Virus record (IMG/VR): IMGVR_UViG_3300047317_000290
Location: 1-40,669 of that record
DNA: 40,669 bases
Strand: one strand, 5' to 3'
Source of the DNA: a virus
Below are positions 25 through 37,722 of the stretch, one piece after another. The translations under genes and the position numbers were made by a program. Under the pieces are notes generated by a model. That model was not told where the DNA came from and ran no database searches. It was given only the letters and a program-made list of their open reading frames with translations. The first letter of the stretch is position 1; each line of letters starts with the position of its first letter.

Positions 25-54
25 GGCAATCGACTCACTAGATATAGGGTAGAG
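25..54 (+). promoter_or_regulatory. Early-type conserved element, copy 1 (upstream of tRNA genes)
   Basis: Block A (GGCAATCGACTCACTA, 25-40) matches the consensus exactly. Block B at offset 22 is poor (GGGTAGAG). It lies about 200 bp upstream of the first tRNA and is the only copy left of the lysis genes. It shares the ten bases CGACTCACTA with the T7 promoter core. Inferred role: promoter for the leader and tRNA transcript, or an operator. Confidence 0.5.
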
Positions 55-19792: not shown

Positions 19793-20034
19793 TGGCGCCG
19801 CCTGACGAAGGCGGAGCTTGGGTTTCAGCGACCGAAATCTACCAAGAACTACGGCGACTGTCAGACGCTGTAGTACGCCTAGAAGAGCGCCTAGCGCACG
19901 ATGACACACAAGATGAGCTAGAGCGCATGGACGCGCGCCTGAGCGCCGTAGAGCAGCGTGTATGGCGTGCGTCGGGTATCGCTGCCACGCTGGGTGCAGT
20001 GATCGGCATTGCTGTGCCCTTTCTCATGAAGTAG
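19792..20034 (+). CDS. Second small membrane lysis protein (coiled coil + TM)
   Basis: 80 aa. Residues ~12-55 form a charged coiled coil (ELRRLSDAVVRLEERLAHDD, ERMDARLSAVEQRV), and the C-terminus is one transmembrane helix (GIAATLGAVIGIAVPFLMK). This is the layout of XhlA-like holin-associated proteins. Translation is coupled to the holin by the TAATG overlap. Its final stop base (20034) is the first base of conserved element 2, so the late region ends exactly where an early-type element begins. Confidence 0.7.
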   Translation: MAPPDEGGAWVSATEIYQELRRLSDAVVRLEERLAHDDTQDELERMDARLSAVEQRVWRASGIAATLGAVIGIAVPFLMK

Positions 20035-20063
20035 GCAATCGACTCGCTCCCTTAGTGGTAGGT
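20034..20063 (+). promoter_or_regulatory. Early-type conserved element, copy 2 (before dNMP kinase)
   Basis: Block A GGCAATCGACTCGCTC, 49 nt before the ATG at 20083. Block B is not recognisable. This is the junction of late and early regions. Confidence 0.5.
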
Positions 20064-20781: not shown

Positions 20782-22374
20782 GTGAACGTAGTCAGCTACA
20801 ACGGCGGCAAGGTGCACAGCGCAATGCCGGGCATGCCCGAAGACCACGCGTACCCGCTGTGCCGTGGGGGCGGCATGAACCAGATGGTCACCACGTTTCG
20901 CACCATCGACGCGCCCCTGACCTGTAAGACGTGTCTGACCTACGCGGAGCGTCGTGCTGCAAAGCTGGCCGCCGAGGATCAGGCCACCACAGAGAGTGCG
21001 GAGCGCATGCCCATCACCATCAAGTACAACCGGACCACCAATCACCTTGATGGCCTGGACATCCGTACCGCAGCCACCGACCAGACCGAAGAGCAGATCA
21101 GCGCAACGGGAGAGGTCGCCTACTACGCTGAGAACGCGTGCGGCAGCTTGACCCGGTACCGCTTTGCTGGCGGCCAGTCCTTCGACACTGTGGGGGAGGC
21201 GCTTGAAGCTGCCCGCGCCGGTAGCCGGAAGTTGTGCAAGACGTGCGAAAGGGCTGCCGAAGCCATGCTTGCCGCTGAATCTGCTAACATCACGTCAGAC
21301 AGTAACGCCGAAGAAGGAGAGATCATGGCAGAGATGAAATCCAACGATGTCAGCACCGACGAAGGAAAGGCAGTGCTTGAGCAGATTGACGCCAACATCG
21401 AGCGCGCCTCTTCGCTGGCTGAGGCTGAGAACGTCGAAGGGCTCAAGGAACTGGAAGGCGAGACCGAGACGCTGATCTCTTCTCTCAGCGGAAAGGGCAG
21501 CATCAAGGTCAAGACGGAAAAGCGCGAGGCTTTCAGGGCCGCTGCCACTGTGCAGGAGAAGCCGAAGGCCGAAGTAGCCCCCGTAGTCACCTACGATCAG
21601 ATTCCGGGCGTTCCGGAGCTGATCGACATGGGTGTCGAAAAGGCAGTCGAGGGTGTCCGGCTTCACCTCAAGGCAGTGGACACAGCGAGGGAACTCGCAA
21701 AGATCGGCCTGGACATGTGGCTGCGCATGGAAAACAAGAAAAAGTTCCCGGACCTTATGGGCGACAGCGACCAAGCCAAGAAGTCCTCGAAGGCACTGAA
21801 TGATAAAATCGGTCAGGCGCTGGCGAAGGAGCAAGGCCTGTCCGAGTACGAGGTAGTGCAGGCGGTAGCAAAGTTCAGCCGGTCCATCCAAACCCAGCGC
21901 TCCAACGTCCGCGCCCAGTTCCTGCGCAGCCTGGACGACGACACCGAAGAAGCTGCCGAAGCGCGCGAGGTGTTCGCTGACGTGCTCAAGGACAAGCCTA
22001 AGGATGTTCCCGTCTCTCGCTGGGTGGCTGACGCCTACGGCACGAGCCTGGTGGGACAGACTGAAATCGACGCCATCGAGTACCACATCAAGCGCAAGGG
22101 TGTCGAAGGTCTGCCGGAGAAGTACAAGGCAATCGCGGCGTATGAGCCCAGCATTCTGGAGCAGACGGGGGCAGCACAGCTAGAGGCGGCAGCCAACCCG
22201 GACGATGCTCTCACGAGCGTTGTTGACCTTCTTGAGAGCGAGTTCAAGAAGGTGGAGAAGCTGACTAAGCGGGAAACCATCGAGTCGGCGTCTGAGGATG
22301 TCAAGAAAGCTCAGCGGGAGAGGCTGGAACCGCTGTTCGCCAAGATGAAGGAACTGATCGCAGCCACGCTCTAA
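20782..22374 (+). CDS. Large acidic early protein with Cys-pair N-terminal region; unknown function
   Basis: 530 aa from GTG 20782. The first ~165 residues contain scattered Cys/His pairs (CKTCLTYAER, CKTCERAAEAM), probably two zinc sites. Residues ~182-530 are Glu/Lys/Ala-rich and helical (KAVLEQIDANIERASSLAEA, ESEFKKVEKLTKRETIESAS), with coiled-coil character. A strong ribosome site (AAGGAGA) precedes an in-frame ATG at 21325 (MAEMKSND), so a separate ~349-aa product is likely. No family recognised. It stands alone between two terminators, which suggests high expression on its own promoter. Confidence 0.8.
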   Translation: MNVVSYNGGKVHSAMPGMPEDHAYPLCRGGGMNQMVTTFRTIDAPLTCKTCLTYAERRAAKLAAEDQATTESAERMPITIKYNRTTNHLDGLDIRTAATDQTEEQISATGEVAYYAENACGSLTRYRFAGGQSFDTVGEALEAARAGSRKLCKTCERAAEAMLAAESANITSDSNAEEGEIMAEMKSNDVSTDEGKAVLEQIDANIERASSLAEAENVEGLKELEGETETLISSLSGKGSIKVKTEKREAFRAAATVQEKPKAEVAPVVTYDQIPGVPELIDMGVEKAVEGVRLHLKAVDTARELAKIGLDMWLRMENKKKFPDLMGDSDQAKKSSKALNDKIGQALAKEQGLSEYEVVQAVAKFSRSIQTQRSNVRAQFLRSLDDDTEEAAEAREVFADVLKDKPKDVPVSRWVADAYGTSLVGQTEIDAIEYHIKRKGVEGLPEKYKAIAAYEPSILEQTGAAQLEAAANPDDALTSVVDLLESEFKKVEKLTKRETIESASEDVKKAQRERLEPLFAKMKELIAATL

Positions 22375-22731: not shown

Positions 22732-22747
22732 GGCAATCGACACACTA
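22732..22747 (+). promoter_or_regulatory. Early-type conserved element, copy 3 (block A only)
   Basis: GGCAATCGACACACTA with one change from consensus and no block B. It is only 27 nt before the ATG of the 74-aa gene, closer than any other copy. The following GGGGAGA is both the ribosome site and a T7-like start. Confidence 0.45.
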
Positions 22748-22758
22748 GGGGAGACGGC

Positions 22759-22983
22759 ATGAGCAACGAAGATGTGACCATTCCGGCGCGCCTGGTTCCG
22801 TACGTGGCCGAGGGGCTGCGCGTGGCACTGACCGGGCTAAAAGTGATGCAGCTCGATGAGCCGGACAGCGAAGAGGCGCGCCAAGCTGACCAACTAAGGG
22901 CGATGTTGACGCGTGCGTTCAAGGAGCTACCCGACGCGCTCCGCCCGGAAGGGGACCTCCTCAAGCTGCCTGAGCGCCCCTGA
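22759..22983 (+). CDS. Small helical acidic protein
   Basis: 74 aa, with GGGGAG five bases before the ATG. Predicted mostly helical (AEGLRVALTGLKVMQLDEPD, ARQADQLRAMLTRAFKELPD). No membrane segment or motif recognised. Followed by a terminator-like hairpin. Confidence 0.7.
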   Translation: MSNEDVTIPARLVPYVAEGLRVALTGLKVMQLDEPDSEEARQADQLRAMLTRAFKELPDALRPEGDLLKLPERP

Positions 22984-23030: not shown

Positions 23031-23101
23031 CTGTGCCCGCAGACGGCCGCACAGCGCTTCTACACAGCGGGCGAAGCCACACAAGCCTCTGACCAGCCAA
23101 G

Positions 23102-23195
23102 AGTGTAGAAGTGTAGTTTTGACCCCCATCCCAGTAATCACTAAGGGTTTCTATAGGGAATACAGAACCACCCCCTAAAACTACATTTCTACACT
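23102..23195 (+). repeat. Long inverted repeat with GTGTAG iterations upstream of the RecB-like gene
   Basis: Arms 23102-23120 and 23177-23195 match 18 of 19 positions, separated by 56 bp. Each arm holds two GTGTAG-like units eight bases apart, and a further TTCTACAC lies at 23058-23065. The middle is less GC-rich (TAATCACTAAGGG, TTTCTATAGGGAATAC). Element 4 begins two bases after the right arm. Candidate replication origin or operator; no gene in 22984-23245. Confidence 0.6.
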
Positions 23196-23196
23196 G

Positions 23197-23226
23197 GGCA
23201 GTCCACTCACTAGATCCAGTCCGAGA
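23197..23226 (+). promoter_or_regulatory. Early-type conserved element, copy 4 (before RecB-like nuclease)
   Basis: Block A GGCAGTCCACTCACTA has two changes; block B GTCCGAG lies exactly at offset 22. The start codon at 23246 is 49 nt downstream. Confidence 0.55.
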
Positions 23227-23245: not shown

Positions 23246-24073
23246 GTGGCTGTCAAGACCACGAAGGGCGCGACTCGGTACTACTACCGTGAAGAGGCGC
23301 CCGATACGAAGTACCCGAGTGTGACCAGCATCGTTGACATGTTGCCCAAGAAGTTTCTTCAGCGCTGGTATGCCAACATGGCCGCTGATCTGGCGCTCGA
23401 CTCCATCGACTATGTGCAGCGCATGGCTGATCGGGACAGGGAGGGCGCTAAGAAGTGGCTTGCTGGCGCTGCCTACAGGCACACAAAGCGGCGCTCCGAC
23501 ATTGGCTCCGGCGCCCACGACCTGTTTGAGCGCATGATCAGGGGCGAGGCCATCAGCCGTGTGCACCCGGACCTAGAGCCATACCGGCGCCATTTCGCCG
23601 AATTCCTGGCCGCTGTGAATCCTGAGCTTATCCGCGCTGAGCATGTGGCATGGTCGGACACGCACCGCTACTCAGGCTCTTTCGACGTTGACATGCACGT
23701 GTGGCTCGATGACGAAGGAAAGCCCACCCCGGACCGTTCAGGGACCCGCCAGCGCGTCATGGGGGACTGGAAGACATCCAAGTCCGCGTGGCCATCGGTA
23801 GCGCTTCAGATCGCTGCGTACGCCAACGCCGACAAGGTGATCGCGCCAGACGGTACCGAAGAGCCCATGCCGTCTTACGACGCCGGATATGTACTGCACA
23901 TTACGGACACGTCATGGGACTTCATCCCTGTGGATATCGGCCCCAAGGTTTTCGCCCACTTCCTTTACCTGCGCGAGACCTTCGACTGGGAGCACAGCGT
24001 AGCTAAGACCGTGCTTGGCGCCCCTGTGGCTTCCAGCGCCCGTACCGTGACGGGAACCCAGCGCCGTGCCTAG
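23246..24073 (+). CDS. RecB/Cas4-like PD-(D/E)XK exonuclease
   Basis: 275 aa from GTG 23246, six bases after AAGGGG. Nuclease core: YSGSFDVDMHVW (Asp of motif II), VMGDWKTSKSAWPS (D-x-K motif III), VALQIAAYA (motif IV). RecB-family nucleases of this size are found in the replication regions of cluster A and R4-like phages and act on DNA ends in recombination or repair. The start PSVTSIVDMLPKKFLQRWYA is typical. Its stop is at the first base of element 5. Confidence 0.85.
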   Translation: MAVKTTKGATRYYYREEAPDTKYPSVTSIVDMLPKKFLQRWYANMAADLALDSIDYVQRMADRDREGAKKWLAGAAYRHTKRRSDIGSGAHDLFERMIRGEAISRVHPDLEPYRRHFAEFLAAVNPELIRAEHVAWSDTHRYSGSFDVDMHVWLDDEGKPTPDRSGTRQRVMGDWKTSKSAWPSVALQIAAYANADKVIAPDGTEEPMPSYDAGYVLHITDTSWDFIPVDIGPKVFAHFLYLRETFDWEHSVAKTVLGAPVASSARTVTGTQRRA

Positions 24074-24102
24074 GCAATCGACTCACTAACACAGGGTCGA
24101 AG
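24073..24102 (+). promoter_or_regulatory. Early-type conserved element, copy 5
   Basis: Block A GGCAATCGACTCACTA (perfect); block B GGTCGAAG at offset 22. ATG of the membrane protein gene is 51 nt downstream. Confidence 0.6.
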
Positions 24103-24357: not shown

Positions 24358-24368
24358 CTAGCCCATTG

Positions 24369-24406
24369 AGCCCCTGGTGTCCCTGACGGGATGCCGGGGG
24401 CTTTTT
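24369..24406 (+). terminator. Intrinsic terminator
   Basis: Stem AGCCCC...GGGGCT with inner TCCC/CGGGA pairing, followed by five T. Confidence 0.85.
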
Positions 24407-24423: not shown

Positions 24424-24453
24424 GGCAATCGACTCCCTAGACCTGGTTCGAAG
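24424..24453 (+). promoter_or_regulatory. Early-type conserved element, copy 6 (before RNA ligase)
   Basis: Block A GGCAATCGACTCCCTA and block B GTTCGAAG at offset 22. The variable part ACTCCCT (24432-24438) is complementary to AGGGAGT (24465-24471), which holds the ribosome site. ATG 24476 is 52 nt downstream. Confidence 0.6.
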
Positions 24454-25314: not shown

Positions 25315-25344
25315 GGCAATCGACTCTCTAGACCAAGTTCGAGG
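25315..25344 (+). promoter_or_regulatory. Early-type conserved element, copy 7 (before RDF)
   Basis: Block A GGCAATCGACTCTCTA and block B GTTCGAGG at offset 22. Lies about 100 nt before the start at 25416 because a hairpin is inserted between. Confidence 0.6.
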
Positions 25345-28624: not shown

Positions 28625-28654
28625 GGCAATCGACTCGCTCACCCCAGTTCGAAG
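28625..28654 (+). promoter_or_regulatory. Early-type conserved element, copy 8 (before primase-helicase)
   Basis: Block A GGCAATCGACTCGCTC and block B GTTCGAAG at offset 22; start codon 51 nt downstream. Confidence 0.6.
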
Positions 28655-28675: not shown

Positions 28676-31117
28676 ATGCTGTTCATAGACATACTTGAGC
28701 GCTTCGAGGGTGTGAGTGAGGAACTGGACGGGGGTTATCTGGCGCTGTGTCCGGCGCACGGTGACTCCCGCCCGTCGCTTCGCATTTGGCGCGGAGATGA
28801 CAACAAGGTGCGGCTCACCTGTCGGGCAGGCTGTGACACGTCGGACGTGCTAAAGGCGGCTGGCCTAATGTGGGGGATGTTGTTCAACGCCGAAGGTGAA
28901 GGGGCCACGGTACCGAAGGAGCGCCCCGCGATGGTCGGCATAGCGCAGACGGCAGCGCTGGCCCAGTACGTAGACGCTACGCGAGACGCTTACTTTGATA
29001 CTGGCGCGCATGCTGGCGTTAGCGCAGAAGAATACGCGCGGGCCCGTTTCGGACTGGACGCAGATACAGCGCATGAGCTTGGGGTAGGGCAGGATTACGC
29101 CGATCTAGAGCTGTCCTTCCCCTACCGGTCACGTAGCTTCACGGCGTTCCCGCGTCTGACTGTTCCGCTGTACGACTTTCAGGGCGTTGCCCGAGGGTTG
29201 CAAGGGCGAGATCTCAGCGGAATGTGCCCCGGGCGCTGGGTATCCCTGATGAACCCTCAGGGCTTCCGCTGGGCTCCGTACGGCGTGTTTCGCGGGCAGG
29301 GTGGCTACGGGGTCACGCTCGTGACTGAGGGGCCGGGAGACGGCCTTACAGCGGTTGCCGTTGGTTATGACGTCGTGATGGTTCGCGGTGCGGCCCTTGC
29401 GGGCAGTCCGGAGCTATTGGCGGAGCTGGCCGAAGGCTTGCGCGGTACTCAGGTCATCGCCTGTGGCGACAATGACAAGGCCGGGCGGGACTTCAACCGA
29501 AAGTTGGCCGAAGGCCTTAAGCCATTCGGAATCACCGTGTATGCGCTGCCTATCGCCAACAGCGGAAAAACGGGGGACCTTACTGCCTGGCGTGAGCACA
29601 CTACGGCGGCATTCCCGTCACTGCTGCATAGCGCTGTAAAGCATGCGCGACCGGTGGCCAAGCTAGCTGACACTGTTCGGGCGGAACGCTCCGAGGAACT
29701 CAGCGAAGCCACGGGCGCCGATATCGTGTCGAGTGACCAGGGCAATGAGGCTGCGCGCATCCTGGCCGGTCTCTTGGAGCGCTACGGCGACACGGACGCC
29801 ATGAACGCTCATGCGCTGGTGGCTTGGTGTGATGGCCGTATCCGCTGGGCAAAGGGCTTGGGCTTCTACGTGTGGAGCGGCAAGGTCTGGCAGCCGTCTG
29901 AGGTCAAGGTGCGGCAGGAAATCCACCGTATGGCGGCTGCGCTCATGCTCGCTGGGAAGGTCAAAGAGGCCAGGCCGTTTGCGACTACGTCACGGATTGA
30001 TGATCTGATGACGGAGCTGAAAGCTGTGCCGTCTGTGTATGTGGCGGCTGGCGACTTCGATGACCGGCCAGACCTGCTGAGCTTCCGCAATGGCACCGTG
30101 GAACTCCGTTCCGGCAAGCTTCGCCCGCACGCCAAAGGCGACATGCTGACGTACTGCCTGGATATCGACTACGAGCCTTCGGCGACCTGCCCGCGCTGGG
30201 AGAACTTCCTTACGGAAATCTTCCCCGATGACCCCGAGCTTGTTCCGTACATTCAGCGGCTGTGCGGGTACGGCGTGACCGGCTACACGGATGAGCAGTG
30301 TTTCGCTGTGCTGTGGGGCAAGGGCGCAAACGGCAAGTCGGTCTTGACCGATACGCTGTCGAACGTCTTCCGCACCATTTCGAAGACAACGCCGTTCGCC
30401 ACCTTCGAGGACCGGGCTAGCGGCGGAATCCCCAACGATATTGCAGCGCTTCGCGGCAGCCGATTGGTCATGGCATCCGAAGGGGAGAGCGGCAAGCCCA
30501 TGAGCGAGGCGGTCCTCAAGCGGGTCACCGGAAAAGACATGATCGCCGCGCGGTTCCTCCGGCAAGAGTTCTTCGAGTTCAAACCCTCGTTCCTGCTGAT
30601 GCTGGCGACGAACCATAAGCCAAAGTTCAGGGGTCAGGATGATGGCCTGTGGCGACGCGTCAAGATGATCCCCTTCAAGCGGTTCTTTGCGCCGCATGAG
30701 CGTGACCATGATCTAGACAAGAAGCTCATGGCTGAAGCTCAGGGCATTGCCGCGTGGGCTGTGCGCGGAGCTGTCGAATGGTTCGCCAAGGGGCTGGCCG
30801 ACCCTGCATGTATCAGCGCTGCAACGCGTGAGTACAAGGAAACCAGCGACCGGCTGTCGGGATTCTTTCCGGGCACGTTGGAGAGGGCCGACGGGGCAAC
30901 GATGCTGGGCTCTGAGGCCTACCACGAATACCGGGCATGGTGTGAAGCCGAAGGGCTGCCGCCTAAAGAAGTGTGGTCGCGGAACGTCTTCTATGAGGCG
31001 ATGGAAGAGCGCGGAATCCAAAAGAAGCGGGTCAGTAAAGGTATGGCGCTAGCGGGCATTCGACTCGCTAACGAAGGGCCGAAGGCAACGGGTCCGGGCA
31101 TCTTCGCTCAGGACTGA
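28676..31117 (+). CDS. Primase-helicase (P4 type)
   Basis: 813 aa. N-terminal zinc-binding motif (C25, H28, C49, C53: LCPAHGDSRPSL and VRLTCRAGC). TOPRIM primase core with VTEGPGDG (E218) and IACGDNDKAG (D265, D267). The C-terminal SF3/D5-like helicase has Walker A GKGANGKS (548-555), then LVMASEGESGKPMSEAVLKR and LLMLATNHKPKFRG, characteristic of P4-type primases. It primes and unwinds DNA at the replication fork. Element 10 is embedded in the coding sequence near the 3' end and probably serves the DNA polymerase gene downstream. Confidence 0.93.
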   Translation: MLFIDILERFEGVSEELDGGYLALCPAHGDSRPSLRIWRGDDNKVRLTCRAGCDTSDVLKAAGLMWGMLFNAEGEGATVPKERPAMVGIAQTAALAQYVDATRDAYFDTGAHAGVSAEEYARARFGLDADTAHELGVGQDYADLELSFPYRSRSFTAFPRLTVPLYDFQGVARGLQGRDLSGMCPGRWVSLMNPQGFRWAPYGVFRGQGGYGVTLVTEGPGDGLTAVAVGYDVVMVRGAALAGSPELLAELAEGLRGTQVIACGDNDKAGRDFNRKLAEGLKPFGITVYALPIANSGKTGDLTAWREHTTAAFPSLLHSAVKHARPVAKLADTVRAERSEELSEATGADIVSSDQGNEAARILAGLLERYGDTDAMNAHALVAWCDGRIRWAKGLGFYVWSGKVWQPSEVKVRQEIHRMAAALMLAGKVKEARPFATTSRIDDLMTELKAVPSVYVAAGDFDDRPDLLSFRNGTVELRSGKLRPHAKGDMLTYCLDIDYEPSATCPRWENFLTEIFPDDPELVPYIQRLCGYGVTGYTDEQCFAVLWGKGANGKSVLTDTLSNVFRTISKTTPFATFEDRASGGIPNDIAALRGSRLVMASEGESGKPMSEAVLKRVTGKDMIAARFLRQEFFEFKPSFLLMLATNHKPKFRGQDDGLWRRVKMIPFKRFFAPHERDHDLDKKLMAEAQGIAAWAVRGAVEWFAKGLADPACISAATREYKETSDRLSGFFPGTLERADGATMLGSEAYHEYRAWCEAEGLPPKEVWSRNVFYEAMEERGIQKKRVSKGMALAGIRLANEGPKATGPGIFAQD
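31055..31084 (+). promoter_or_regulatory. Early-type conserved element, copy 10, inside the primase-helicase gene
   Basis: Block A GGCATTCGACTCGCTA (one change from consensus) and block B GGCCGAAG exactly at offset 22, all in coding sequence. It is 141 nt before the DNA polymerase start. Keeping both blocks at the exact spacing inside a gene argues against chance. Confidence 0.5.
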
Positions 31118-33100: not shown

Positions 33101-33140
33101 CCCACGGGTAACTCTACGTGGTAGGCCGGTCGCTCTCAGG

Positions 33141-33164
33141 TCACATACAGGAAACTGTAGGTGA
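33141..33164 (+). repeat. GAAA-loop palindrome, copy I (altered)
   Basis: TCACATACAG / CTGTAGGTGA around GAAA, one mismatch in the left arm. Forty bases after the DNA polymerase stop. Confidence 0.75.
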
Positions 33165-33369
33165 ACCGGAGTGACCGGCTTCCAACTTTTTTCGATCGGT
33201 TTTGGCGCTGAGTGCCCGTAGGTCACGGCCCCGGTTTCGATGGTCATCCGGGTGCGTGGCATATGCCCTTCCAGTCAATCCAAGGGATGAACCTGGTCAC
33301 GCCTTCGCTTCGATGGGCAACCTTGATCATGCGACGGGGGTCTACTGGGTAGTTCAAGAACGAACCTCC

Positions 33370-33398
33370 TTGACCACCTACAGGAAAAGTCGTCTACT
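33370..33398 (+). promoter_or_regulatory. Possible promoter with palindrome half-site in the spacer
   Basis: TTGACC (33370-33375), 17 bases, then TCTACT (33393-33398). The left half of the palindrome family (ACCACCTACAGGAAA, 33373-33387) overlaps the -35 box and spacer; the right arm is absent. The -10 match is weak. Suggests an operator over a promoter, as in repressor-stoperator systems. Confidence 0.35.
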
Positions 33399-33564
33399 CA
33401 AGCCCAGCGAAGCCGAAGGATCCGGCCGGACCTTCGGACAAGCGGAACCCCAACTGAGGGGCTAGTCCGCTCTGTCTCCCTGATCTCTGACCTAGGCACC
33501 CCCTTGCCAAAAACAGGGCGTGAACCAGGTCACAGGCACTCCGGCCGACGGCTAGCCCCTTCCA

Positions 33565-33594
33565 GGCAATCGACTCGCTCTCTCAAGTCCGAGA
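33565..33594 (+). promoter_or_regulatory. Early-type conserved element, copy 9 (before sigma-like gene)
   Basis: Block A GGCAATCGACTCGCTC, block B GTCCGAGA at offset 22, start codon 54 nt downstream. GCTCTC (33577-33582) and GAGAGC (33591-33596) can pair, and GCAATCGAC recurs directly after (33595-33603). Confidence 0.6.
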
Positions 33595-33618
33595 GCAATC
33601 GACGGAAGGAAAACAGCC

Positions 33619-34545
33619 ATGAACGAGACCCTCACCCTCGACCTGATCCGCGACGCACAGGCGAACGGCTTCGAAGGGATCAGCGCCGTACTGGCCGCCA
33701 TGGAAGGCCGAATAGCCCGACTCGCAGCAGCAGCGGCACAGCGCATGACGCTGAACGGCTACCGGTACAACGACTACCGCGAGGACTTCACGCAGGATGC
33801 AAACCTGGCGATGTTCGAGGCGCTGCCCCGGTTCGGTGGAGACAGCGTGGTCACCTTCTACGGCTTCATGCACACCACCATCGAAAGCGTGCTGAAAGAC
33901 AAGGTTCGGAACCAGCGGAACAGCGGCGTTGATGAGGACGCAACCAAGATCTTCGCCTCAATGCTCGACCGCGCTGACGGTGATGTCTACCTTGCAGAAA
34001 AGTTCGCGCAGACCATCCCGCCGAAGGGTCGCCGACTGAGCGCTGAGCGGGCCGAAGCTGCGCGCATGTCATGGCAGGGAGCTTTCAGCCTTGAGGCGCC
34101 CGCTGTACGAGTCGGCGGGGCATCTGCCGGAGGAAACGGGCTCGGCGACTATGAAGCCACCTACAGCTACACGGACACTCTCGTTTCCACGCTGGGCGTT
34201 CCGGAAGACCTGCTCATGCCGGAGGATCTCAACAGCGAAGACCGCCGGGTGAAGCACGCAATCGTGAACGCTGTGCTCGATGTCATGGGCGAGGGTCAGC
34301 GAGTGGTGCTGAAGCATTCCTTCGGGATCGGCGAAGTCACCTGCTACGGCTGTGGGGACAGCGGAGACGATGAGGGGCTGGCCGCTGAGATCGGGTCCAC
34401 GGTCCTCAAGGTGCGCGATGCACGCACGAAGGGCCTCAAGGCGTTCGCCAAGCGCTACATAGCGGCGACTGCCACGAACGAGGATGAGGCCAAGCAGATG
34501 GCCGAAGCCGCAACCGCCAACCTGTCTCGTGGCGGCCGGAAGTAG
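33619..34545 (+). CDS. Divergent sigma-70-like factor
   Basis: 308 aa with GGAAGGA before the ATG. Residues ~53-100 read like sigma region 2: YREDFTQDANLAMFEALPRF, then VTFYGFMHTTIESVLKDKVR. Residues ~212-280 read like region 4: AIVNAVLDVMGEGQRVVLKH and LAAEIGSTVLKVRDARTKGL as the helix-turn-helix. An insertion with CYGC (~242-245) and an acidic run splits region 4, which is unusual. The function would be to redirect host RNA polymerase to phage promoters. The gene is itself preceded by an early-type element, as expected for autoregulation. Similarity is by eye, so medium confidence. Confidence 0.6.
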   Translation: MNETLTLDLIRDAQANGFEGISAVLAAMEGRIARLAAAAAQRMTLNGYRYNDYREDFTQDANLAMFEALPRFGGDSVVTFYGFMHTTIESVLKDKVRNQRNSGVDEDATKIFASMLDRADGDVYLAEKFAQTIPPKGRRLSAERAEAARMSWQGAFSLEAPAVRVGGASAGGNGLGDYEATYSYTDTLVSTLGVPEDLLMPEDLNSEDRRVKHAIVNAVLDVMGEGQRVVLKHSFGIGEVTCYGCGDSGDDEGLAAEIGSTVLKVRDARTKGLKAFAKRYIAATATNEDEAKQMAEAATANLSRGGRK

Positions 34546-36682: not shown

Positions 36683-36895
36683 TTACACGTCGGCGTGCTT
36701 CGCGAACTCCACCAGCCCAGCAAAGGCGTCAGCGCTGAGCATCAACGCCGGACCGTTAGGGCTCTTGCTGTCGCGCACGGGAACGATGCCATGGGCCGCC
36801 GCGTAGGTGGGCGCCCACTCGACACAGTTACCACCCTCGGCACCGCTGTACGACGACTTGACCCACGCCTGTGCGTTGGGAAGGAAGTTGATCAT
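36683..36895 (-). CDS. DUF397 domain protein
   Basis: 70 aa. Shows the DUF397 pattern AWVKSSYSGAEGGNCVEW and later VPVRDSKSPNGPALMLSADA with AGLVEFAK. Such proteins are encoded in dozens of copies on Streptomyces chromosomes beside XRE regulators, and in studied pairs they oppose or modulate the regulator. ATG overlaps the stop of the XRE gene (ATGA), so the two are one operon. Confidence 0.9.
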   Translation of the reverse strand: MINFLPNAQAWVKSSYSGAEGGNCVEWAPTYAAAHGIVPVRDSKSPNGPALMLSADAFAGLVEFAKHADV

Positions 36896-37722
36896 GTCAG
36901 TTTCTCCATCTGGTCTCTGATGAGCTGAGTGCTTGCCTGTCTACTGAGCGCGTCGCCCGTGATTTCATCGTATGCGTGCTCCGCTGCTCGCACGTGCTCG
37001 GGATCATCCACTATTCCGGCGGTGCGGTACGCCTCGACACATACAACTGTCGCGCCGGACGGGCCAGTCAGGAAGGTCGCCGACCGGTCCAGTAGAAGAT
37101 GAGCCTCCGCGTCCAGGGGCAGCACGCGAACGCTGATGGTCGGGTGGGCGCTGTGTGCCAGCAGTGCCTCAAACTGAGCCCTCATGACGTCTCGGGGGGC
37201 CAACAGGCGCCGTACGACGGACTCGCACATCACGACGCGCAGAACGGGCGGTGTGGGCCCCCTGAGCAGATCTTGGCGGGTCATCCGGCGATGTACGTCC
37301 GCCGAAATCTCAGCCTCAGCGGCACGCGGGTCACCCCTGCGCAGGATCGCTGCCGCATAGTCCGGCGTCTGAAGCAGACCCGGGACGACTGTCTGCGACC
37401 ACTCACGGATCTCTACTGCTGAGCGCTCCAGAGTCATACGACGCTGGTACAAGGATGGAAAGTCGGCGGCAACCACATCCGCGTACAGCCGCTTGAAAGC
37501 TCCGTCAGTCCCAAAGATCTGGTCGAAGCGCGGTGGCAGTTCTGGGGGGATGTGACCGGTGCCCTGTTCAGTTCGGCTGATGGTGCTTTTTGAGGTACGA
37601 GCCTGCCGGGCCAGCGCAGTTTGGGTCAGCGCGCTAGGCATGTGAAGTTCGCGCGCGCTCTTCAGCTCTTCAGCGAAGCGGCGCCGAGGGTCTTGAACCC
37701 CAGGCTCATGTTCAGTAGCCAT
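36892..37722 (-). CDS. XRE-family regulator with DUF5753 domain
   Basis: 276 aa. N-terminal helix-turn-helix (LTQTALARQARTSKSTISRT, ~32-51), followed by the DUF5753 region with its hallmark VVPGLLQTPDYAAAILR (~111-127) and later EAHLLLDRSATFLTG. Family members control Streptomyces development or antibiotic genes with DUF397 partners. In this phage it may be cargo, a lysogenic-conversion regulator or even the repressor; no other repressor-like gene is recognised in the window. Reads leftward against the surrounding genes. Confidence 0.9.
   Translation of the reverse strand: MATEHEPGVQDPRRRFAEELKSARELHMPSALTQTALARQARTSKSTISRTEQGTGHIPPELPPRFDQIFGTDGAFKRLYADVVAADFPSLYQRRMTLERSAVEIREWSQTVVPGLLQTPDYAAAILRRGDPRAAEAEISADVHRRMTRQDLLRGPTPPVLRVVMCESVVRRLLAPRDVMRAQFEALLAHSAHPTISVRVLPLDAEAHLLLDRSATFLTGPSGATVVCVEAYRTAGIVDDPEHVRAAEHAYDEITGDALSRQASTQLIRDQMEKLT

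Follow-up and report, generated by a model that had tools for sequence, protein, structure and literature searches.

A divergent sigma factor of phiC31-like Streptomyces phages and the element that is most likely its promoter

Phage-encoded sigma factors such as SPO1 gp28, T4 gp55 and phiEco32 gp36 redirect the host core RNA polymerase to phage promoters, and the late promoters of T4 consist of a single box. Such pairing of a phage sigma factor with promoters of its own is a kind of system already known, and none of these three proteins is known to be orthologous to the gp12-family sigma factor described here. The best-studied Streptomyces phage is phiC31, from which integration vectors derive. 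Its early promoters have been considered phage-specific since the 1990s; Ingham et al. are said to have found in 1993 that promoters of the early region are infection-dependent and unlike host promoters. We know of no specificity factor assigned to these promoters, and a search of the open-access literature found no experimental assignment for gp12 of phiC31, phiBT1 or TG1. Salmonella phage 7-11, which is phiEco32-like, encodes a sigma factor, gp47, with which the host core uses promoters of two boxes, GTAAtg-(16)-aCTA, and the promoters of phiEco32 are single boxes, tAATGTAtA (PMC8948821).

The sigma gene and its product

The window analysed here, the whole 40,669-nt stretch of IMG/VR record IMGVR_UViG_3300047317_000290, holds most of the genome of a phiC31/Rowa-group phage, nearly complete, and its right end lies within an apparent serine-integrase C-terminus. 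A gene encoding a 308-aa protein follows directly after the DNA polymerase I gene, as it does in the relatives compared, and starts with ATG behind the Shine-Dalgarno sequence AAGGA. The protein matches PHROG 15865 (E 2.2e-104), and its orthologues are gp12 of phiC31, phiBT1, TG1 and their relatives. Since RefSeq names this family 'RNA polymerase sigma factor' and PHROGs labels it likewise, the protein itself is not new and belongs to a known family. The GenBank labels of the orthologues are inconsistent (hypothetical, DNA binding protein, 'RNA polymerase subunit alpha'); by homology, MT701593.1, MT701596.1, MK686069.1 and MK433266.1 carry the same sigma family despite the labels 'DNA-directed RNA polymerase subunit alpha' or 'DNA binding protein'. 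Most family phages also retain a non-coding gap of 400-520 nt between the DNA polymerase and sigma genes (33101-33618 in the window), which contains one or two palindromes; Rfam gave no match in the window. The gene and the parts of its product are located as follows.

33619-34545, plus strand: gene for the 308-aa sigma factor, orthologous to phiC31 gp12 (PHROG 15865)
33715-33918, plus strand: sigma region 2, residues ~34-100 (PF04542, E 6.3e-9 in the window search)
33934-34113, plus strand: region-3-like stretch, residues 106-165, strongly conserved and terminating in SLE/SLDxP, like sigma-3
34204-34488, plus strand: sigma region 4, residues 196-290 (RpoD region 4 profile match; AF2 fold)
34336-34374, plus strand: acidic insert VTCYGCGDSGDDE, residues 240-252, between helix 4.1 and the helix-turn-helix
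34375-34446, plus strand: helix-turn-helix of region 4.2, containing the nearly invariant R269

An earlier note on this DNA had described a recognizable sigma region 2 and a region-4-like helix-turn-helix, and comparison of profiles and structures with sigma domains 2 and 4 agrees with both. First, the protein matches PF04542 in Pfam at E 5.8e-7, above the curated cut-off, and it is the sole PF04542 match within the window. The NCBI sigma70 superfamily model TIGR02937 covers residues 34-236 at E 7e-9, which is under its cut-off. Q59, invariant in the gp12 family, pairs in the alignment with the Q of SigA DLIQEG and with the Q of the corresponding SigB stretch. The single protein gave no match to the PDB by phmmer, and a family profile was needed. 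When such a profile (A2, built from 55 relatives) was searched against all PDB chains, sigma factors made up 52 of the 53 matches up to E 1; region 2 (SigB, E 2.5e-6) and region 4 (RpoD, E 1.6e-4) were matched independently, and SigA was matched over both. The Pfam region 4 model by itself stays under the cut-off in every family member scanned. Regarding region 3, Pfam Sigma70_r3 gives a weak match under the cut-off in relatives, and the SigA profile alignment spans the region-3-like stretch. The ECF architecture, in which regions 2 and 4 occur and region 3 is absent, is not matched, since this conserved stretch of 60 aa lies in between.

The AlphaFold model of the protein has a mean pLDDT of 83.7, and the 50 best PDB matches listed for it are all sigma or RNAP entries with ~270-318 columns aligned. 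Differences in domain placement keep the global TM to these entries low (0.23-0.34). The isolated region 4 model (pLDDT 89) reaches a TM of 0.6-0.81 to solved -35-binding sigma-4 domains, and R269 aligns with sigma70 R588, the arginine that contacts the -35 element. The acidic insert with CYGC that had been noticed is real and separates helix 4.1 from the helix-turn-helix. Its CYGC motif varies among relatives (CYGT in Rowa, DYGH in phiC31, DFGW in Samora), so the insert is not a metal site. Judged from its sequence profiles and its predicted structure, the 308-aa protein belongs to the sigma-70 family as a divergent member that has regions 2, 3-like and 4. A Pfam search of the window for a single-subunit RNA polymerase gave no match, but it gave none in its control genomes either, so this negative result says little about the presence of such a gene.

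A bipartite element in the window and across relatives

The element GGCAATCGACTCGCT begins at 33565, exactly 54 nt upstream of the sigma ATG. The earlier note had given this distance correctly and had called the copy the ninth, but by position it is the tenth. Scanning the window with the pattern GGCAATCGACTCNCT at up to 3 mismatches returned 13 matches vs 4.35 +/- 2.2 in shuffled sequence, and none of the 100 shuffles reached 13. The note's count of ten copies holds for the matches with at most 2 mismatches (10 of the 13), all of which are on the plus strand, and EM on the non-coding sequence recovered the same motif de novo. These ten copies and the other signals at the sigma gene are listed here as putative promoter parts.

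25-41, plus strand: promoter element copy, preceding the tRNAs and the late operon
20034-20050, plus strand: promoter element copy, preceding the dNMP kinase gene
22732-22748, plus strand: promoter element copy, touching the Shine-Dalgarno of a small ORF
23197-23213, plus strand: promoter element copy with 2 mismatches, preceding the exonuclease gene
24073-24089, plus strand: promoter element copy from the pattern scan
24424-24440, plus strand: promoter element copy, right after a terminator-like hairpin at 24368-24403
25315-25331, plus strand: promoter element copy, preceding the gene of 25410
28625-28641, plus strand: promoter element copy, 51 nt upstream of the DNA primase gene
31055-31071, plus strand: promoter element copy within the primase 3' end, ahead of the DNA polymerase gene
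33565-33581, plus strand: promoter element copy preceding the sigma gene, with the -35-proximal block GGCAATCGACTCGCTCT (pattern scan, EM and profile)
33589-33595, plus strand: second box CCGAGAG of the sigma gene promoter, probably -10-like (pooled consensus gYGAAGG at +24 to +30)
33577-33596, plus strand: inverted repeat, GCTCTC..GAGAGC, that overlaps the sigma gene's element copy in its 3' half

At 22732-22761 in the window, and at 21758-21786 in Rowa (L003), a small ORF behind the repressor gene has an element copy right next to its Shine-Dalgarno and ATG; because it abuts the Shine-Dalgarno, the 22732 copy cannot drive the small ORF with this geometry. The sequence CAATCGAC, a partial direct repeat of the element, occurs twice between the promoter block and the Shine-Dalgarno of the sigma gene (33567-33574 and 33596-33603). 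Terminator-like hairpins precede some of the element copies. A scan of the early region, which used the E. coli consensus only, found no host-type sigma70 promoter that could serve a first round of sigma synthesis.

We compared 88 loci, comprising 80 IMG/VR loci and complete phages, by taking the best 17-mer before the sigma start with random positions as the null. In ~67 of the 88 this 17-mer exceeds the 98.5th percentile of random positions, and it lies 42-77 nt before the start. The pooled element is bipartite, with C.GGTAACCGACTCnCTA over 0 to +15 followed at constant distance by gYGAAGG at +24 to +30, and its other copies in 56 loci fall 310 times on the plus and 7 times on the minus strand. 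Of the pooled copies, 46% have the dinucleotide GA at +26, vs ~5% upstream. GTAACC and the second box are ~17 nt apart, which is ordinary sigma promoter spacing. At 16 nt, the conserved block exceeds the normal length of a -35 hexamer, so part of it may be recognized by another protein.

The sequence of the element differs between clades. In phiC31, GGCAATCGACTC is absent and the corresponding places are occupied by GGTTGCCGACTCCCTT, one of them 50 nt before gp12; the gp12-associated elements are GGTTGCCGACTC in phiC31 and GGTCACCGACTC in phiBT1. Other versions are GTCACCGACTCCCTT in phiBT1, Samora, Shawty and Euratis, GTCGCCGACTCCCTT in TG1, GGGAATCCCCTCCGCTC in Heather and Sebastisaurus, CTTAACCCACTCACC in Sycamore and GGCCGCTGACNCC in AbbeyMikolon. 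The element is a family-wide signal in clade-specific versions. An inverted repeat with an arm of at least 6 occurs at 26 of 58 sigma-gene copies vs 36 of 406 other copies (1.8% in shuffles), and it may limit self-activation at the sigma gene's own copy. In the relatives, this repeat is CTCACTC..GAGTGAG in Rowa and GACTCCCT..AGGGAGTC in the phiBT1 types, in which it extends to the Shine-Dalgarno.

Copies in the late region and at the right end (L001 12978 and 40568, with equivalents in L004, L005, L006, L013 and L015) carry CATATAGGTAGAGGG or a close sequence downstream in place of the GAAGG box, and perhaps form a separate late promoter class. A conserved module of ~100 nt with the inverted repeats GTGATGAAGTGACG..CACTTCATCAC..GTCAC lies upstream of the first early copy and of the right-end copy in the phages compared (window ~23080-23200; L001 21649-21768 and 40428-40547; L003 22984-23046 and 41059-41121), and is a candidate enhancer, origin or immediate-early promoter. 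Lastly, among more distant phages, Dubu (L095) and phiSASD1 (L096) were missed by tblastn and picked as sigma-less controls, yet they carry sigma-like genes and their own elements. In both, and in the Arthrobacter phage Liebe (L097), a sigma-like or sigma-annotated gene stands behind the polymerase together with asymmetric repeats of its own (GGGGGAGGTTCTCTCCGG; GGGGACNTCCTCCCCGG; GCGTGAGGCGCCTAGCGT); since the three share this arrangement, it may extend beyond Streptomyces.

Co-variation of element and sigma factor

In a set of 66 loci after dereplication, sigma-adjacent elements differ from one another in step with their sigma factors (distance correlation rho 0.65), compared with 0.20 for the adjacent DNA polymerase and 0.22 for primase. 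Since physical linkage ties the sigma-adjacent copy to its gene, the test was repeated on the primase-adjacent copy, ~5 kb off. This copy also follows sigma (rho 0.60-0.67; partial given primase 0.57, 0 of 300 permutations), and its partial correlation with primase itself is 0.04-0.08. When each of the 17 sigma clusters is represented by a single locus and both polymerase and primase are controlled, the partial correlation is 0.60 (0 of 1000 permutations). A direct example is the pair L040 and L081, in which primase is 81% and polymerase 86% identical, sigma is only 43% identical, and the elements differ at both genes (GCTAACCGACTC vs TGCGTTCGAACC). Where sigmas are >55% identical, element distance tracks polymerase, primase and sigma alike, as the three proteins and the element share common descent; the specific signal thus comes from deeper or recombined pairs. 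Residue-by-base mutual information singled out neither region 4 nor the recognition helix. The co-variation indicates that sigma and element evolved together, like lock and key.

One other reading, which we consider improbable, is that host RNA polymerase reads the element with a different phage activator, and that the sigma-like protein serves another set of promoters or is a sigma-appropriation factor. The reach of the conserved block beyond a -35 hexamer would fit such an activator, as would the residue-level co-variation without a clear recognition-helix signal, and the window also has the gene of a phage DNA-binding protein (36892-37722). However, the protein has the full sigma 2/4 architecture, the boxes of the element are spaced like -35 and -10, and the element tracks sigma even with polymerase and primase controlled.

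The window also contains ten copies of a palindromic repeat, ACCACCTACAGGAAACTGTAGGTGGT, which is distinct from the asymmetric element. We take these palindromes to correspond to the conserved inverted repeats (CIR) of phiC31, which are repressor operators. One copy is the following.

33131-33171, plus strand: one of the ten palindromic elements, with CACATACAGGAAACTGTAGGTG as core; probably a repressor operator (CIR), and a DNA code separate from the promoter element

This operator bears on a still less probable reading, in which the asymmetric element is a second repressor site that blocks transcription, comparable to the stoperators of phage R4 and mycobacteriophage L5, and sigma has its targets elsewhere. 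R4-type Streptomyces phages do possess stoperators (PMC10276819), and stoperators are typically in one orientation, intergenic and asymmetric. These phages, however, already have the palindrome as a separate recurrent site, and the copies of the element lie upstream of starts, some immediately after terminator-like hairpins. Moreover, the element follows sigma and not CIR: across 47 loci, CIR distance and element distance correlate at 0.17 (partial 0.075), and as the two are unrelated, this argues against the element as a repressor site, which we rejected on this comparison. In the same 47 loci, the CIR operator diversifies among lineages independently of sigma and element, and so these phages carry a second DNA code that is private. 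Least probable of all is an RNA or translation signal in leaders, such as a start-associated sequence or an antitermination site, for although the element always runs along the direction of transcription close to starts, one copy touches a Shine-Dalgarno and the sigma-gene copy contains an inverted repeat, the distance of the element to the start is variable with a fixed box-to-box spacing, Rfam gives no match, and copies stand ahead of tRNAs and within coding ends.

Since the element is clade-specific, tracks sigma and is independent of the operator, it is most likely the promoter for host core RNA polymerase carrying this sigma, at the sigma gene as well as elsewhere. The earlier suggestion of a sigma factor with its own non-housekeeping promoters, one of them at the sigma gene, gains support from the profiles, the structure and the co-variation at copies distant from the sigma gene. 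Its description as a complete switch was overstated, as the origin of the first sigma and transcription start at the element are themselves conjectural.

A putative private promoter code and its known counterparts

We propose, with high confidence in the scheme as a whole, that sigma and host core read the bipartite element as a promoter, including at the sigma gene, in a self-amplifying system under repressor control. Sigma would bind the Streptomyces core RNA polymerase and steer it to promoters that combine a long upstream block, GGCAATCGACTCnCTa in the window phage and GGTAACCGACTCnCTA across the family, with a weaker gYGAAGG box ~17 nt past the first hexamer; the two boxes are assigned to -35 and -10 by geometry, and transcription would start there. 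The ten promoters would serve early genes, those for replication among them, as well as the tRNA/late-operon end and sigma itself. The first sigma would presumably be supplied by the host enzyme, after which positive feedback at its own gene would make the system self-amplifying, and the phage repressor, acting on the separate palindromic operator, would keep it off in lysogens. A bolder version, which we regard as possible and rather doubtful, gives each phiC31-like lineage a private transcription code: sigma and promoters would diverge jointly, outpacing the neighbouring replication genes, into ~10-17 potentially mutually exclusive pairs, with the long spacer block read by an extra sigma surface and the palindrome restraining sigma self-activation.

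What appears to be new is the cognate promoter code. Within the literature searched, this holds for the pairing of the phiC31 gp12 family with a promoter element and for the evidence, drawn from the whole family, that element and sigma co-evolve. The gp12 family is thereby named as a candidate specificity factor, and a promoter element is predicted for each relative. Such naturally diversified sigma/promoter pairs are possible orthogonal expression tools in Streptomyces, and the family is a natural experiment on the co-evolution of sigma factors with promoter DNA.

Compared with the closest systems, the sigma of Streptomyces phage Rowa (Rowavirus) is 69% identical to that of the window and shares its synteny, with the element AGCATTCGACTCACT again 54 nt upstream; Rowa differs in that GCAATC of the element is GCATTC, and in its CIR operator. 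The gp12 proteins of phiC31, phiBT1 and TG1 (Lomovskayavirus, Tigunavirus; PHROG 15865) occupy the same place after DNA polymerase at 46-48% identity overall, and their genes have an element of their own 49-52 nt upstream, like the window sigma gene. In contrast to the window, these proteins have an insert of ~80 aa between regions 3 and 4, and the element sequences of phiC31, phiBT1 and TG1 are different (GGTTGCC, GGTCACC, GGTCGCC). Finally, gp47 of phage 7-11 differs in serving late genes only and in a consensus without the long block; however, the geometry is alike, both first boxes contain GTAA, and in both phages a repeated bipartite element stands ahead of phage genes.
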